Assembly: GCA_030630935.1 (NCBI GenBank)
Contig: DAOVMD010000163.1
Span: forward strand, 1-6,959
DNA: 6,959 bases
Source: Candidatus Mcinerneyibacteriota bacterium
GTDB taxonomy: Bacteria > AUK180 > JAQVHJ01
Direction of reading: 5' to 3'
A program made the translations under genes and the position numbers. The notes under the pieces were generated by a model, which was given only the letters and a program-made list of their open reading frames with translations, made no database searches and had not been told where the DNA came from. This document shows, one piece after another, positions 174 through 6,730 of this stretch. The first letter of the stretch is position 1. Every line of letters starts with the position of its first letter.

Positions 174-249
174 GCGTCCGGAGTTTATCCTGAATCCAAG
201 CGAAGCGCGTGGTTTAGGGCGTCCGGAGGTTACCCCGTTTTTTCGGGAT
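174..249. repeat. GC-rich degenerate repeat patch
   Basis: GCGTCCGGAG occurs at 174-183 and 219-228, 45 bp apart. The patch also contains GAGGTTACCCCG (226-237) and a short stem around six T residues (232-249). TCCGGAGT at 177-184 is found again at 6000-6007 inside the repeat-built tail of the exbB gene, and GTTAC flanked by C/G-rich arms is the core of the palindromes there. I infer a decayed, non-coding relative of that repeat family, but the shared words are short and could be chance. Confidence 0.35.
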
Positions 250-269: not shown

Positions 270-2420
270 TTATTTTTGTTTTTTTCCCAAGCAATAAAGT
301 TGCTTGAGGAACGCATCTTTTTGTGAAGAGGTTACGCCTTTTCTGGAGTATCGGGCGAGGATGAAGGTATTGACGATATGTTTGAGTTCTTCTGATTGTT
401 CGGTAAATATCTGTTTAAGTTTCATTAGCGTTTCATCGGGGGTTAATTTTTCGTATGTGAACGGTTTTTTTCTGACTACATCTTTCAAGAAAGTATGGTA
501 ATTTCTAATTACCTCGACCGAGTCAGCATTTCTATATTCAATTGAGAATTCGAGTTTCTTTTTGAAGAATATTTTCTTTCTATATTTAAAGATGATTAGT
601 CCTGTTAAGACGATTATAATAAGTACAATATTATTTTTTATAAAGTTTCCGACCGATACGAAGAACCTTGAGATCATGACTCCTGTTCTTTTCGGAATTA
701 GTATTTGCGGGTCAATATTAAATATTTTATCTAATAATATTCTCAACCTTGAAATCATGTTCAGGTCACCTGATCTTTGGTAGAACCCTGGCGGGGTTGG
801 GTCAAACGTAACCCAAGCGAAGTCCGTAAAAAAAATCTCCACCCATGCATGTGCATTATACTCACGAATTTGTATCTCACCCTCCTGCCAATTATATTCC
901 CCGCCTGCATATCCGGTAACTACTCTTGCCGGGACATTAATAATTCTACACATTACAACCATTGCCGTCGCGAATTGTTCACAATACCCACCTTCCATAT
1001 TAAAGATAAAATAATCGACTACATCATCCACATCATCCTGGCTCCCTGCAGTTGTATCGAGTGTATATTTATAATTTGTTAACAGGTACTCCTGAATTGC
1101 CAGGACCTTCTCATAACTTGATTCCTTTCCTTCAACAATCTCAAAGGTTTTCTCCCGCAATCTTTCCGGGATATCCGGCAGCTGAACATAGGCATTTAAA
1201 CTCCCTCTAATCTTAACTTCCCCGTCATCCTTCAGCTTATCATAATTAAAATCCTTCACGTACGATACTACGGAGTACTTAACTCCAGGATTAAGTGTAG
1301 TATATAACCAGATGTTCCCCAGTTTAGTTTTCCTAATAGAAGGATACCCAATCCTAACCACCCCAATTTTATAAGCCCCGAAAACCACATTAGGCTGCGG
1401 CGCTATGATCGTGAACGTTTGTTTAACCAGGACCTCATTATAAAGTTCCGACAGTTTCTCATCTGCAGTCCTGAAAATTACGGAGTATTCATTATACCTG
1501 TTCAAAGTTGAATATTTTATTATCCTTTTCATTCCATCGGATATCTCCCAACCCTGCCCGGTATATTGGTCATACACCAGACCCCTGATATACTTTGACC
1601 TCTGAAAATCCCCGGTCTCAACCAGCATCACAATTCTATCCGATAGTTCTGTCCTGGCAAATGAAATGTTAAAGTCTTCGGAGAACCCTGAATAATTAAC
1701 CCTTGCATTCTGCTGATCCTGTTGAAAATACTTAATTATATCATCATTAATTGAGAACCTGAGCCTGATTGAAGATTCGTTCCAGAACTGTGGAATTGTG
1801 ATATAAAGAATTATTGCGAATAAGAACAAAATCACATCGAGCGAAATAATCTTTACCAGCAGTGACTTCGTCAAGAATTTCAGGTTAATAATCTTCTGAT
1901 ACCCGTCCAGTTTCTTAATCTCTGAATTAGACAGGAGCATCAACTGACTCAGGAAAAAGATCAGGAATATAAAAATCTCTACCAGAATATAAATATCCGT
2001 TGCAACAGAAGCCGAGTAAACGAGCAGGATCAGGGAGATTATCCCCATCGTCTTAAACCTGTGCATTTGCGTCAGGGAAAGTGTAAATATTGTTGCGCCC
2101 CAGACCATACTGATTGCCAGCACATCCTTCAGGAAAAATGCCCCGCTCCCCATTAACTTAAAATTATTATATAGAATCCCGATAAAAATTAACCCGATAA
2201 TATTATCGATAAATAAACCTACTTTCCGTGCCTTCCGCAGTTCAAGACTGAACAAGCTTAAAATCACACTGAAAATTAATACAAGTATAAATTCATCTAA
2301 TCTCTTCAGGTATTTAAATGTACTGAATGCCGCAATAAAGAATCCGCCCAGAGTAACAATATAAAGATAAATTAAATTCTCCTTCTGAAATTCCTGTTTA
2401 AAATCACGTTCCTGATTCAT
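270..2420 (-). CDS. TgpA-type membrane transglutaminase-like protein
   Basis: A 716-residue integral membrane protein with the layout of the TgpA family (DUF3488 N-terminus, transglutaminase-like core, DUF4129-like C-terminus). About seven hydrophobic segments fill residues 16-210. A large, presumably periplasmic domain follows, and it holds the full papain-like triad: Cys480 in GGYCEQFATAM, His524 in YNAHAWVEI and Asp540 in VTFDPTP. One more membrane helix (about 597-612) is followed by basic residues and a cytoplasmic tail ending in the ARYSRKGVTSSQKDAF region typical of DUF4129. Family knowledge supports a cysteine-protease or transglutaminase-like activity on envelope proteins or peptides; the substrate is not known. 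The start codon directly follows the DUF58 stop (TAAATG), and the only weak SD-like AGGT lies about 9 bases upstream, so translation is probably coupled. It is the last gene of the operon. Confidence 0.93.
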   Translation of the reverse strand: MNQERDFKQEFQKENLIYLYIVTLGGFFIAAFSTFKYLKRLDEFILVLIFSVILSLFSLELRKARKVGLFIDNIIGLIFIGILYNNFKLMGSGAFFLKDVLAISMVWGATIFTLSLTQMHRFKTMGIISLILLVYSASVATDIYILVEIFIFLIFFLSQLMLLSNSEIKKLDGYQKIINLKFLTKSLLVKIISLDVILFLFAIILYITIPQFWNESSIRLRFSINDDIIKYFQQDQQNARVNYSGFSEDFNISFARTELSDRIVMLVETGDFQRSKYIRGLVYDQYTGQGWEISDGMKRIIKYSTLNRYNEYSVIFRTADEKLSELYNEVLVKQTFTIIAPQPNVVFGAYKIGVVRIGYPSIRKTKLGNIWLYTTLNPGVKYSVVSYVKDFNYDKLKDDGEVKIRGSLNAYVQLPDIPERLREKTFEIVEGKESSYEKVLAIQEYLLTNYKYTLDTTAGSQDDVDDVVDYFIFNMEGGYCEQFATAMVVMCRIINVPARVVTGYAGGEYNWQEGEIQIREYNAHAWVEIFFTDFAWVTFDPTPPGFYQRSGDLNMISRLRILLDKIFNIDPQILIPKRTGVMISRFFVSVGNFIKNNIVLIIIVLTGLIIFKYRKKIFFKKKLEFSIEYRNADSVEVIRNYHTFLKDVVRKKPFTYEKLTPDETLMKLKQIFTEQSEELKHIVNTFILARYSRKGVTSSQKDAFLKQLYCLGKKQK

Positions 2421-3638
2421 TTACTTTGTTACCTGATTAAAAATCTCTGAAATTAAATCCTCTTTAAAATACGGGTATAGTTTCACACCTGTCAAAGCAA
2501 TCTCTGATAATTCATCTTCCACATCCTTCCTGAGTTTTACCCTGGAAACTGACCCCAAATAACTCTCAGGAATAAGATAAATAAATATTACCTTAACCTT
2601 TTTCGCCCTAAATAAATTCATATAATAAGTATATTCCTTCTTCCACTTTTTACAGATAATAATCAATACACTCTCCGTTTCCACTAAATTCTCTGCCTTC
2701 TCGAACGAATCCTTCAGCCCGAACATTTTATCTGCTTTTAACAGGGCAAGGTTATTCAGGATTGCGTATAGCTGTTCGTGCCCTGTACTGGGAAAGATAT
2801 AGTCTCGTCCCCAGATCATTCCGATATTATCGTTGTTATCAATTCGATTCTTTATAATTGACGCTGCAATATTTATTGACCTTTCGAAATTGGAATCTGC
2901 TCCGGACCCGATTAGTCCTTCCGAACTTATATCGAGTATGATATAACTTGAATGACCCAACTGCTTTTCGAATTCCTTAACTACTAACTTATTAAATCTT
3001 GCCGAGACCTTCCAATCGATTATCCGGATACTATCTCCGCTTTGATATTCCCTGATCCCATAGAATTCATTACTCCCACCGATCGTTGTAATAATTTTAT
3101 TTGAAGACGACGTCAGGATCTGTTCATAAGTCGGGAAGTTCATTATCCTGGAGATCTCCGGGTAAATTAAAATAGTCGAATAATTCTCTTCAATTGAATT
3201 TCTCGAAACTAATAAGAACGGATATAGCGAAGTTATCTGAGAGGGACCGAGCAGATGTCTTCCCCGGGTAGTTGCAGTAACTGAATACCTGAATATTATA
3301 GACTCATCCTTCTTTGTTGAATAAATGAAGAAATTCTTCTCACGGTCAGATTCAATTGCAGGAAGGAACTTATCCTTTATCAACAGAAATAACCTCGGCT
3401 CGACCGAATCAATTTTCAACTCAACATCAACCACCTGATTCTGAAATGCGACCGGTTCAGTTATCCTGCGCACCTTTAACCCTTTCAAGTTCCGGGCAGA
3501 GAAAATGATTGCGATAATAAATATCCCGATTAACAAGTACCCGATAAAAAACAGGAGGTTTGCCCGGGTATTCCAGCCTGCAGCAAATATTATTATTGTA
3601 ATTACAATGAAATAAAGTGAGTTTCGCGTTAATTTCAT
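2421..3638 (-). CDS. DUF58 family protein (vWA-like), MoxR partner
   Basis: This 405-residue protein has two membrane helices near the N-terminus (about 8-21 and 27-47). A periplasmic or beta-rich stretch follows, then the DUF58 signature at about 192-226: FYGIREYQSGDSIRIIDWK, then SARFNKLVVKEFEKQ. After it comes a von Willebrand A-like fold starting at YIILDISSE (232-240). The usual metal-site motif DxSxS appears as D236-I-S-S-E, so the second serine is replaced by Glu and metal binding may be lost or altered. DUF58 proteins nearly always sit beside a MoxR ATPase and are thought to be its partner in assembling or activating envelope proteins. The start lies one base after the MoxR stop and lacks a recognisable Shine-Dalgarno sequence, which points to translational coupling. 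Family assignment is firm; the exact role is not. Confidence 0.93.
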   Translation of the reverse strand: MKLTRNSLYFIVITIIIFAAGWNTRANLLFFIGYLLIGIFIIAIIFSARNLKGLKVRRITEPVAFQNQVVDVELKIDSVEPRLFLLIKDKFLPAIESDREKNFFIYSTKKDESIIFRYSVTATTRGRHLLGPSQITSLYPFLLVSRNSIEENYSTILIYPEISRIMNFPTYEQILTSSSNKIITTIGGSNEFYGIREYQSGDSIRIIDWKVSARFNKLVVKEFEKQLGHSSYIILDISSEGLIGSGADSNFERSINIAASIIKNRIDNNDNIGMIWGRDYIFPSTGHEQLYAILNNLALLKADKMFGLKDSFEKAENLVETESVLIIICKKWKKEYTYYMNLFRAKKVKVIFIYLIPESYLGSVSRVKLRKDVEDELSEIALTGVKLYPYFKEDLISEIFNQVTK

Positions 3639-3639
3639 T

Positions 3640-4611
3640 TTATTTAGGTATAATTGTATCGCCTAAGATATTCTCTAAGATTTTAATCGGGGTTAACCCG
3701 GTTAATTTCGCTTGCGGAGTAAGAATGATTCTATGTTTCAAAATTGAAATAAAAATCTTTTTCAAGTCGTCAGGAATAACATAATCTCTCTCATGAATCG
3801 CAGCAACTGCCTGAGCTCCTCTTTGCAGGTATAAAGACCCTCTTGGGCTCGAGCCGATTGCGAGGTTAGGATGGAAACGCGTAGCATTTACTAATGCAAG
3901 GATATATTTTTTCACGGTAGGTTCAATGAATATTTTCTTAATTTCGTTCTGGACAAAACAAACTTCTTCAACATCCACAACCGGTCTCAAACTCTCTAAA
4001 GGATGAATAATAATCTGGTCGTTCATGATCCTTAACTCACTATCTTCATCCGGATACCCAATCTCGACTGACATAAAGAATCTATCCAGCTCCGCTTCCG
4101 GTAATGGATATGTTCCTGCCTGTTCAAGCGGGTTCTGTGTCGCGATTACAAAAAACGGCACAGGAAGCTTAAACGTTTTCCTTTCTACCGTAACCTGGTA
4201 CTCTTCCATCGCCTCCAATAAACTGGACTGAGTCCGTGGTGTACCACGGTTTATCTCATCACATAACAGGATATTTGTGAATACAGGGCCAGGTCGAAAA
4301 ATAAAATCAACTTCCTTCTGATTATAAACATAAGTCCCGATAATATCTGCCGGGAGCAAGTCAGGAGTAAACTGAATCCTGTTAAAGTTACCCTTTATTG
4401 ATCTTGCCAGGGATTTTGAGAGGACTGTCTTCCCTACTCCGGGGATATCATTAATCAGGATATGCCCCTGGGAAATGAAACCTGTTAAGATTAATCGAAT
4501 AACCTCGTCCTTTCCCCTGATTACCTTTTTAATATTCCCGAGAATCTTCATCAGGATCGAATTCACTTTCAGGATATTTACATTATTCTTATTTACTTCA
4601 GTTTCAGGCAT
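3640..4611 (-). CDS. moxR: MoxR-family AAA+ ATPase
   Basis: A 323-residue cytosolic AAA+ ATPase of the MoxR family, at the usual length. It has Walker A NDIPGVGKT (54-62), Walker B NILLCDEINR (113-122) followed by the family block TPRTQSSLLEAMEE, sensor 1 FVIATQNP (154-161), the GTYPLPEAELDRF block (166-178) and a sensor-2 Arg257 in GSSPRGS. All nucleotide-binding and hydrolysis residues I can check are present. MoxR proteins are thought to act as chaperones that remodel or mature partners carrying vWA domains, here most likely the DUF58 protein encoded immediately downstream. The start is backed by AGGAAG (4619-4624) seven bases upstream, overlapping the end of the TonB-like gene's stop region. 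An in-frame Met21 is a possible but less likely alternative start. Confidence 0.96.
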   Translation of the reverse strand: MPETEVNKNNVNILKVNSILMKILGNIKKVIRGKDEVIRLILTGFISQGHILINDIPGVGKTVLSKSLARSIKGNFNRIQFTPDLLPADIIGTYVYNQKEVDFIFRPGPVFTNILLCDEINRGTPRTQSSLLEAMEEYQVTVERKTFKLPVPFFVIATQNPLEQAGTYPLPEAELDRFFMSVEIGYPDEDSELRIMNDQIIIHPLESLRPVVDVEEVCFVQNEIKKIFIEPTVKKYILALVNATRFHPNLAIGSSPRGSLYLQRGAQAVAAIHERDYVIPDDLKKIFISILKHRIILTPQAKLTGLTPIKILENILGDTIIPK

Positions 4612-4618
4612 TGGTCAG

Positions 4619-4624
4619 CTTCCT
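4619..4624 (-). promoter_or_regulatory. Ribosome binding site of the MoxR gene
   Basis: On the minus strand AGGAAG precedes the ATG at 4611 by seven bases. It is the only clear Shine-Dalgarno sequence within the MoxR-DUF58-transglutaminase half of the operon; the two genes downstream lack one and appear to depend on ribosomes arriving from MoxR. Confidence 0.7.
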
Positions 4625-5380
4625 TTATTTCATTTTAAAAATTATAATCGCTTTACCCTTCACGTTCCCGGGTTCCTTCACCGCTTCCCAGCGAAATTTC
4701 TGAATTAAAGATATTGAAATTTCCGTTAGTTTCTGATCCGCAATAATGACCGGGGAAATATTAACCGCATTCCCTTCTGGTGTAACTTCAAAATCAAGAG
4801 CAACCTGGACATTCTCCTTTAACTTTATCCCCTTTGGTATGGTAGGCCTGTGAATAATCCTTCTCTTCTGAAGGTCCTTACCCGTGATCCGGATCAAGGA
4901 GTCTTCAGAACCTGTGCTGTCGCCAATTTCAAAATCGGAATCATCAATAATATCCGGGTAAAACAAGTCGGAATCCCTTCTTTTTATTTCCGTATTACCC
5001 TTACCCGGTGAGTCATCCTCTGTACCAAGTTTGAAGATCTTTTTAATCTTATCCTTTGAATAGAGTACAGGGTCATTTAATTCATGAGCAAAACTTCGGG
5101 ACTCAGGAAGATGTACCTCGTCAATCTCTTTAAATTGTAAATCACTCAACACAACTGATGACTCCGGGATCCCCAGGATCTTTGACTTTTTCCTCATATT
5201 AGCTACCTTCAACGGCTGTGGAAGGTACTCACCTTTCATAAAACTAACCGAGATATATTTCCTATCCGAAATTGGTTTTGACATAATGAAGAATGATAAT
5301 ATCCAAATAAGTAAAATATGAATAATAAACGAATACAGAAAGGAGTATCTAATCCTCCTATCATCATAATAATTCATCAT
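4625..5380 (-). CDS. tonB: TonB-like energy-transducing protein
   Basis: A 251-residue protein with a single N-terminal membrane anchor (about 13-33), a periplasmic linker and a C-terminal TonB-like domain (about 188-251: VQVALDFEVTPEGNAVNI, then a helix with LIQKFRWEAV and a final strand KGKAIIIFKMK). The anchor has S17-x-x-x-H21, the Ser/His spacing that in E. coli TonB is needed to couple to ExbB/ExbD. The linker is charged and rich in Asp, Ser and Lys, without the long Pro-Glu/Pro-Lys run of classical TonB. It follows exbD with an ATGA overlap. AGGA abuts the first ATG, so the second ATG (5377) may be the true start. I infer that it transmits the ExbB/ExbD motor's motion, but no receptor gene lies in view, so its outer-membrane partner is unknown. 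Confidence 0.87.
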   Translation of the reverse strand: MMNYYDDRRIRYSFLYSFIIHILLIWILSFFIMSKPISDRKYISVSFMKGEYLPQPLKVANMRKKSKILGIPESSVVLSDLQFKEIDEVHLPESRSFAHELNDPVLYSKDKIKKIFKLGTEDDSPGKGNTEIKRRDSDLFYPDIIDDSDFEIGDSTGSEDSLIRITGKDLQKRRIIHRPTIPKGIKLKENVQVALDFEVTPEGNAVNISPVIIADQKLTEISISLIQKFRWEAVKEPGNVKGKAIIIFKMK

Positions 5381-5790
5381 TCCTGTTCCGGGGTAGTTGC
5401 GATAATCAAGTCTTTCAAGTTAAGTGAGTTACAGATATCCATGACCTTAACAACGACTCCATACTTGACATCACGATCACCTTTTATTATAACTGTTTTA
5501 TATTCCGGGTGAACCTTAATAAAGTTCCCGAGCTCAATCTCTAAGTTATATAAAAAAACCTCTTTATTATCGAGAAAAATTCTTCCGGACTCCGTAACTG
5601 AAATCACTAATGCATGCTTAACTTCAGGAAGTGCAGACTTTGCTTCAGGCGGGTTAATATTTATTCCGGATTGATAAATAAATGTAGTCGTCAGCATAAA
5701 AAAGATTAGGAGTATCAAAACCACATCAATCAAGGGGGTCAAGTTAAACATAACCTTTGTTTTTATCTCATCATCTGCAAAGAATTTCAT
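5377..5790 (-). CDS. exbD: ExbD/TolR-type proton channel subunit
   Basis: A 137-residue protein of usual ExbD length: a short cytoplasmic N-terminus, one membrane helix (about 19-37) and a periplasmic domain ending at PEQE. The helix starts NLTPLIDVVLILLIFFML, with Asp22 at the place of the essential proton-carrying aspartate of ExbD/TolR. The periplasmic part has the expected strand and helix pattern (VISVTESGRIFLDN, TVIIKGDRDVKYGVVVKVMD). It would dimerise inside the ExbB ring to make a proton-driven motor in the inner membrane. AGGA (5797-5800) lies six bases upstream of the start, inside the end of exbB, and the gap between the two genes is 2 bp. TolR is the alternative name; the adjacent TonB-like gene with its SxxxH anchor favours ExbD. 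Confidence 0.93.
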   Translation of the reverse strand: MKFFADDEIKTKVMFNLTPLIDVVLILLIFFMLTTTFIYQSGININPPEAKSALPEVKHALVISVTESGRIFLDNKEVFLYNLEIELGNFIKVHPEYKTVIIKGDRDVKYGVVVKVMDICNSLNLKDLIIATTPEQE

Positions 5791-5792
5791 TG

Positions 5793-6683
5793 CTATTCCT
5801 GATCATCTGGGTTTATCTCTGGCGGCGTTTCGGTGTCGGGGTCAGTCCCCGTTCCGGGGTCAAGCCCTTTACTAAGCGGTGTTACACCGCCGGGGTCCGT
5901 TATGGTATCGGTCTCATCCGTCTCTGTTTCGGTTTCAATCTCAAGCCCCGTGTCGGGGTCATTAGAATGCGGCGTTACGCCGTCGGGGTCAAACTCCGTT
6001 CCGGAGTCCTTAGAATGCGGCGTTACGGCGCCAAGCCCCTCTGAAAGCGGTGTTATACCGCCGGGGAATTTAATAATATCGATCAGTTCGATCGAGTTCA
6101 TTTCAAGTGAAAGCAGAATCTCTTTTGAATACCCTACCATAAAATTATAAATAATAACCGCTGGAATTCCTATTGCCAGACCTGTTGCCGTTGTGATCAG
6201 AGCCTCTGCAATCCCGCTTGCTAACAAGTCCGGATTCCCCACTCCTCCTGCTGAAATTGAGAAGAACGCCCGAATCATCCCTGTCACAGTTCCCAGTAAC
6301 CCGATTAACGGGGTGATACTTGCAATTGTTCCCAGGACCGAGATATTCTTCAGTATATTTGGAGTAATTGACCTGCCCCTATCCTGAATCCGTTCCTTTA
6401 ACTCTGATAACGGCAGATATTTATAGATAATAATCTCATTAAATAATAATGCAAGGGGTCCCGGATTATCTTTACAGAACTTCAATGCTTCCTTATAACT
6501 CCCTTTTGAGACCAGTCTCTTGATTCGCATTGAGATATTTGTAATATACTCTGTTAAGTTCTTAAAGACCCAGAGTCTCTCAATCACGATTGTCATCGCG
6601 ATTATCGATGCGATCCCGAGGAATATCATTAGTATCCCACCGCCCTTTAAGAACAAGAAAACATGTTTAATTCCTGATATCAT
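5793..6683 (-). CDS. exbB: ExbB/TolQ/MotA-family protein with repeat-built acidic tail
   Basis: The first ~205 residues are a normal ExbB/TolQ core: membrane helices at about 15-38, 112-140 and 157-183, with GTVTGM (Thr132) and IAEALITTATGLAIGIPAV (Glu160, Thr165). By alignment with E. coli ExbB by eye these match Thr148, Glu176 and Thr181. It would form the ring around ExbD. ATG at 6683 is preceded by GGAG (6691-6694) at seven bases. The unusual part is residues 207-296, a cytoplasmic, Pro/Asp/Glu/Thr/Gly-rich tail absent from ordinary ExbB. It has four copies of [GA]-[VI]-T-P-[HL]-S (from 209, 219, 235 and 266) and three of D-[PS]-x-T-[GE] (from 226, 242 and 275), plus a TETETDETDT run. Its DNA is clearly more GC-rich than the core (39 of 60 bases in 5821-5880, against 19 of 60 in 6121-6180). 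It is the first gene of the operon. Confidence 0.93.
   Translation of the reverse strand: MISGIKHVFLFLKGGGILMIFLGIASIIAMTIVIERLWVFKNLTEYITNISMRIKRLVSKGSYKEALKFCKDNPGPLALLFNEIIIYKYLPLSELKERIQDRGRSITPNILKNISVLGTIASITPLIGLLGTVTGMIRAFFSISAGGVGNPDLLASGIAEALITTATGLAIGIPAVIIYNFMVGYSKEILLSLEMNSIELIDIIKFPGGITPLSEGLGAVTPHSKDSGTEFDPDGVTPHSNDPDTGLEIETETETDETDTITDPGGVTPLSKGLDPGTGTDPDTETPPEINPDDQE
5847..6066. repeat. In-frame array of small palindromes inside exbB
   Basis: Two kinds of short inverted repeat recur through the 3' part of exbB. Kind 1 has a GTTAC core: GCGGTGTTACACCGC at 5876-5890, CGGCGTTACGCCG at 5970-5982, and copies with one mismatched pair at 6018-6030 and 6047-6061. Kind 2 has a three-base loop: CCCCG-TTC-CGGGG at 5847-5859, CCCCG-TGT-CGGGG at 5946-5958 and ACTCCG-TTC-CGGAGT at 5993-6007. 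Five to seven-base arms are perfect in five of the seven. TTAGAATGCGGCGTTACG is identical at 5962-5979 and 6010-6027, 48 bp apart. All seven centres (5853, 5883, 5952, 5976, 6000, 6024, 6054) fall in the same codon phase, so the array keeps one peptide reading. Confidence 0.8.
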
Positions 6684-6708: not shown

Positions 6709-6730
6709 GAGACGTGCCATGGCACGTCTC
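6709..6730. repeat. Perfect 22-bp palindrome upstream of exbB
   Basis: GAGACGTGCCA (6709-6719) is followed at once by its exact reverse complement TGGCACGTCTC (6720-6730), with CCATGG at the centre. In the transcript it would fold into a strong hairpin just above the exbB ribosome binding site; on DNA it could bind a dimeric protein. Similar GTAGAGACGT-type palindromes are, as I recall, widespread interspersed repeats in several bacterial groups; here the right flank CTCTAC matches that form while the left flank does not. A repeat element is the simplest reading. Confidence 0.7.

Follow-up and report, generated by a model that had tools for sequence, protein, structure and literature searches.

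In elements of the Rickettsia type, each insertion is one longer stem-loop of about 100-150 bp. Rickettsia palindromic elements (RPE), the coding palindromes of Wolbachia and Methanocaldococcus jannaschii, and PARCELs have been summarised together (PMC2996958). RPE and the Wolbachia and M. jannaschii palindromes lie in frame in genes for ordinary proteins, within a disordered part, and are absent from orthologues; they form families whose similar members are spread over many unrelated genes per genome. PARCELs, repeated coding units with dyad symmetry in their DNA, occur in many taxa and ORFs; the motif that they encode (DUF285/TIGR02167) is amphipathic and 25 residues long. REP elements, which RAYT transposases mobilise, are dispersed, mostly extragenic palindromes that share sequence, and ordinary intragenic minisatellites are lineage-specific, local, in-frame and degenerate copies in disordered tails. 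Hairpins, paired changes and re-perfected arms are known products of template switching (PMC8794818).

The stretch of DNA analyzed here (the window, 6,959 nucleotides) is one contig of a 3.16-Mb MAG that comprises 471 contigs and is 80% complete. Its minus strand carries, in the order of transcription, exbB, exbD, a gene for a TonB-like protein (251 aa, no Pfam match), and genes for a MoxR-type AAA ATPase, a DUF58 protein and a transglutaminase/TgpA protein. This single gene cluster, exbB-exbD-tonB-like-moxR-DUF58-tgpA (window 270-6683), is conserved within the family-level lineage. The exbB product, a common membrane motor protein (5793..6683, minus strand, 296 aa), has a conserved ExbB core of residues 1-206, with a Pfam MotA_ExbB match over residues 94-195 (E 4.9e-27), and exbD (5377..5790, minus strand) matches Pfam ExbD (1.8e-29). 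Only 2 nt separate the exbB stop from the exbD start codon, a gap that is identical in a same-family relative. The remaining 90 codons of exbB (codons 207-296; 5796..6065, minus strand, also given as 5793-6065) form a tail without any Pfam match. AlphaFold2 pLDDT values are ~44-62 per block from residue 211 versus more than 90 for most of the core, and the tail is predicted to be disordered from about that residue.

The original prediction described two kinds of small inverted repeat in this tail, and both were recovered. With a minimum arm length of 5 bp, seven inverted repeats were found within the last 90 exbB codons, and their arms measure 5-7 bp. Type A palindromes are built around GGYGTAACRCCG and encode (G)VTP[HL]S, type B palindromes are built around CYCCGRMACGGRG and encode D[PS]xT[GE], in agreement with the peptides that had been named. 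Read along the minus strand, on which all copies are given, the series begins with type A copy 1 (GCGGTATAACACCGC, GITP, 6047..6061; DNA hairpin -5.4 kcal/mol), type A copy 2 (CGCCGTAACGCCG, AVTP, 6018..6030), in which the symmetry is broken, and type B copy 1 (ACTCCGGAACGGAGT, DSGTE, 5993..6007; hairpin -5.2 kcal/mol, z -3.4). It continues with type A copy 3 (CGGCGTAACGCCG, GVTP, 5970..5982), type B copy 2 (CCCCGACACGGGG, DPDTG, 5946..5958), type A copy 4 (GCGGTGTAACACCGC, GVTP, 5876..5890) and type B copy 3 (CCCCGGAACGGGG, DPGTG, 5847..5859), each of them recognized both as an inverted repeat and by hairpin folding. The seventh inverted repeat (CGGGGACTGACCCCG, 5837..5851) is a composite of the 3' arm of B copy 3 and the 5' arm of B copy 4, and not an independent copy. 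B copy 4 itself (CCCCGACACCGAA, DPDTE, 5829..5841) has lost its symmetry and, like A copy 2, stands beyond the seven. Most palindrome copies fold as single-stranded DNA hairpins, with -5.2 to -6.6 kcal/mol for the intact ones. The reported spacings of 93, 48 and 30 nt between GTTAC cores are right, except that the fourth core is GTTAT, and an 18-base exact match between copies is real (5962-5979 and 6010-6027). The claim that G+C is about double in the tail was not upheld, as the values are 58% for the tail versus 40% for the ExbB core.

All seven centres fall in one codon phase, as had been predicted; they lie on the third codon base, and third positions pair with third positions. However, the seven, of which one is composite, are in-frame copies of two palindromes, and the single codon phase is due to common descent rather than to seven independent events. 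What remains as an independent observation is the agreement in phase between types A and B.

The number of palindromes exceeds expectation under four null models (seven versus means of 1.2-2.3, P 0.0005-0.007). Synonymous recodings that preserve the peptide contain about two palindromes on average, and the observed seven still exceed this number (P 0.003-0.007), so that symmetry may be favoured by more than plain duplication. Background values were drawn from sampled stretches of the same genome, 827 kb in total. Coding sequence elsewhere in this sample contains 0.25 GC-rich palindromes per kb, which makes the density in the tail about 120 times higher. In this sample, palindromes in coding sequence as a whole showed no evident preference for a codon phase, and no second palindrome cluster lay inside a real gene. 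A candidate for such a cluster was rejected, as its ORF looks spurious and the palindromes beneath it intergenic. Paired arm changes (C-G/T-A) occur in both types, synonymous in type A and non-synonymous on both sides in type B. With four copies per type, arm covariation between copies was suggestive but not significant (77/500 shuffles for A and 236/500 for B), and covariation was therefore dropped as proof of a selected structure. On the plus strand, a 105-codon open frame runs antisense to the tail (window 5833-6150). GVTP is read repeatedly there too, because the palindromes keep the frames of both strands matching.

In-frame self-comparison of the tail gave three main matches, at offsets of 48, 171 and 147 nt. 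The first is a 48-bp tandem duplication, with a first copy at 5988..6032 (GAVTPHSKDSGTEFD) and a second at 5940..5984 (DGVTPHSNDPDTGLE), both on the minus strand and 80% identical. The other two connect block X (PGGITPLSEGL-GAVTPHSK-DSGTEFDPDGVTP, 5970..6065, minus strand) with block Y (PGGVTPLSKGL-DPGTGTDPDTETP, 5826..5894, minus strand). At offset 171, PGGITPLSEGLGAVT and PGGVTPLSKGLDPGT are 80% identical, and at offset 147, DSGTEFDPDGVTP and DPGTGTDPDTETP are 82% identical; the two offsets imply an 8-codon indel. Between the blocks lies an acidic, ET-rich core (EIETETETDETDTIT, 5898..5942, minus strand, identified by direct reading), the sole part of the tail that resembles the tail of the orthologue (AETETEIEVEVEE); given its low complexity, it is at most inferred to be homologous to it. 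From this pattern, we would say that one block of ~70-95 bp was copied to the other side of the ET core, with an indel of 8 codons, while one part was duplicated in tandem. Synonymous and non-synonymous codon differences number 0/8 for the pair at offset 48, and 1/5 and 0/5 for the other two of the three best copy pairs, with all codon positions affected, the pattern to be expected if the peptide is not constrained. Since the differences are mostly non-synonymous, it was DNA that was copied, under weak peptide constraint. TRF at score 30 did not call the array; the copies are old and degenerate, and the number and order of duplication events are therefore uncertain.

Comparison with relatives places this growth within the lineage. 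One same-family genome was used (record JAQVHJ010000054.1, MAG STE_202), which has the same six genes in unchanged order. Identity between the two ExbB proteins is 79% across residues 1-206; beyond that they diverge, as the orthologue ends with a 23-aa acidic tail (QEVNPLPLPEAETETEIEVEVEE) and the window protein with 90 aa. The orthologue alignment that had been proposed as a check thus found the long tail missing as a unit. In about 60 ExbB homologues of greater divergence, 0 to 42 residues follow the aligned core, and none of these proteins has the tail peptides. The second ExbB of the host genome has no tail-like extension either. Judged by this alignment with one same-family genome, the 90-codon tail is lineage-specific and has grown by DNA copying within the lineage.

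Copies elsewhere were sought at the DNA and peptide level. A blastn search of the host MAG (3.16 Mb, 80% complete) with the tail as query returned only the tail itself and chance matches of 15-17 bp. The type A word, at up to 3 mismatches, had just its four sites in the tail, and the type B word occurred at control level (43+32 sites versus 35+33 in the reversed control). No protein similar to the tail peptide was found in the host genome, and tail k-mers were not enriched over codon-shuffled controls in the sampled genome. Among 386 genomes, the type A word had two matches outside its own genome, which is chance level in the 385 others. Matches of type A in 22 viral contigs, one in each, were also taken as chance, and in plasmids the matches were just weak ones of 34 bp (E 0.3). 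These searches do not support a dispersed, mobile family of palindromes, with the caveat of the missing ~20% of the genome. The original prediction of a mobile or self-expanding element holds insofar as the tail was grown by DNA copying, and is not supported as to mobility and dispersal.

The genome contains palindromic repeats of other kinds, with GC-rich palindromes about nine times denser between genes than in genes. The intergenic repeat GTCCGGAGTTTACCCCGA...TCGGGGCGGTGAA (window 176-238) has 127 sites in the whole genome (57+70, up to 3 mismatches) versus 1 in the reversed control. As the same-family genome has only 7 sites and relatives of the class have 0-9, it has undergone a strong lineage-specific expansion; it often occurs in tandem pairs, and its hairpin loops are variable. 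A relationship of the tail to this repeat was considered and rejected: CGGAGTTTGACCCCGA in the tail resembles it in 15 of 16 positions with one gap, which was taken as chance, and an HMM from 74 members of the family did not match the tail. At least nine further dispersed intergenic palindrome families (window 6709-6730 and 32-48; L100, L107, L108, L116) include AGACGTGCCATGGCACGTCT, CCCAGCAATAAATTGCTGGG, GCATGCTTTGCATGC and TCCCGACGCGTCGGGA, and in the GGGTTAAGGGCCTTAACCC family the arms covary inside constant flanks. Dispersed families number about ten in all, and their sequences are unrelated to the tail. A two-hairpin intergenic element (GTAGCCTGGGG...CCCC...ACACA-hairpin-AGT..TGAAAACAA) was found at L101 370-440 and L108 5810-5880, with paired changes distinguishing the arms of the two copies. 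Three Y1_Tnp (RAYT-type) genes are also present, with no GC-rich palindromes in the flanks examined.

Several explanations of the tail can be weighed against these data. A mobile coding palindromic element of the Rickettsia kind could have been inserted in exbB once or repeatedly, with other copies lost or unsampled. In-frame, GC-rich inverted repeats in the disordered part of an ordinary gene, gained in one lineage, would fit such an element, as would a genome rich in palindromic repeats and equipped with Y1_Tnp genes. Yet there is no second copy outside exbB in 3.16 Mb, the 385 other genomes hold no more than chance matches, neither k-mers nor the HMM link the tail to other sampled repeats, the intergenic family of greatest abundance included, and the examined Y1_Tnp flanks lack such palindromes, so that we consider this origin quite improbable. 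Selection for the peptide, as a repeat linker or binding motif, would reduce the palindromes to a by-product of composition and repetition. GVTP[HL]S and DPxTG do recur, and peptide-preserving recodings alone account for some of the palindromes. Against this stand the mainly non-synonymous differences between copies, the lack of the tail in relatives, its predicted disorder and a palindrome count above the peptide-preserving null, and selection for the peptide appears very improbable. The original prediction had named two signs of selection on the protein, repeat words not found elsewhere and a peptide conserved in distant relatives over varied DNA. The former is what we observed; the latter is not, as the tail is absent there.

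Very improbable as well, in our judgment, is that the hairpins are selected as structure of the exbB-exbD mRNA, acting on stability, pausing or translation coupling. The RNA fold has a z of -2.4 versus dinucleotide shuffles (5/200 as good), and pairing of third with third positions is the phase most permissive for synonymous compensation. Still, the hairpins are short and lie inside translated codons, A copy 2 and B copy 4 have decayed, the covariation falls short of significance, and the relative with identical gene order does without the repeats.

Together, the above observations are best explained by a lineage-specific, in-frame local duplication of a palindrome-bearing coding minisatellite in one gene, to which we assign a probability of roughly 0.75. 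A short GC-rich segment with two small palindromes would have been copied locally and in frame several times at the 3' end of exbB, one event being the 48-bp tandem copy and another the placement of the ~70-95 bp block beyond the older acidic ET-rich tail. The added peptide would have been tolerated because the protein end is disordered, according to the prediction, and poorly constrained. Copies that broke the frame would have been lost, probably by spoiling the exbB stop 2 nt before exbD, where we infer translational coupling. Such a frame filter, together with the common descent of the copies, would leave a single codon phase. Duplications that arose locally in a disordered protein end and were filtered for frame would thereby account for the lineage specificity, the confinement to one locus, the phase and the pattern of differences between copies.

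Hairpin-forming strands in replication may well have promoted both the copying and the near-perfect arms, by slippage or by template switching between arms. As a driver of the two, hairpin-driven template switching is plausible but unproven. There is a slim chance that the tail represents a new kind of coding palindromic element that multiplies only locally, with template switching copying and re-perfecting palindromes within one frame, third positions always paired, and a tail grown without dispersal. If the hairpin-driven reading is true, the tail would be a small natural example of a protein tail grown from palindromic DNA by local copying, and a case intermediate between minisatellites of the plain kind and the coding palindromes of Rickettsia. 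The scope is one gene in one MAG, and the general picture is unchanged.

Compared with the known systems, the tail resembles RPE and the Wolbachia and M. jannaschii palindromes in being in-frame palindromic DNA in the disordered part of a protein whose orthologues lack it. It differs in that all copies lie in exbB, with no similar copies in unrelated genes or spacers of the 80% complete genome, and in that separate palindromes of 13-15 bp within duplicated units take the place of a single longer stem-loop. With PARCELs it shares dyad symmetry in tandem coding repeats and an open frame on the opposite strand; its repeat units, however, comprise ~16 hydrophilic residues instead of 25 amphipathic ones, and are confined to one ExbB. 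The dispersal and shared sequence of REP elements are not seen. Template-switch (quasi-palindrome) mutations (PMC8794818) have the same perfect short arms and paired changes between arms. Like ordinary intragenic minisatellites, the tail consists of several adjacent or nearly adjacent copies of one segment within one gene, but it is unusual in that each unit bears a pair of GC-rich palindromes that share a codon phase. The tail is thus best classed as an intragenic coding repeat expansion whose units are palindromic.
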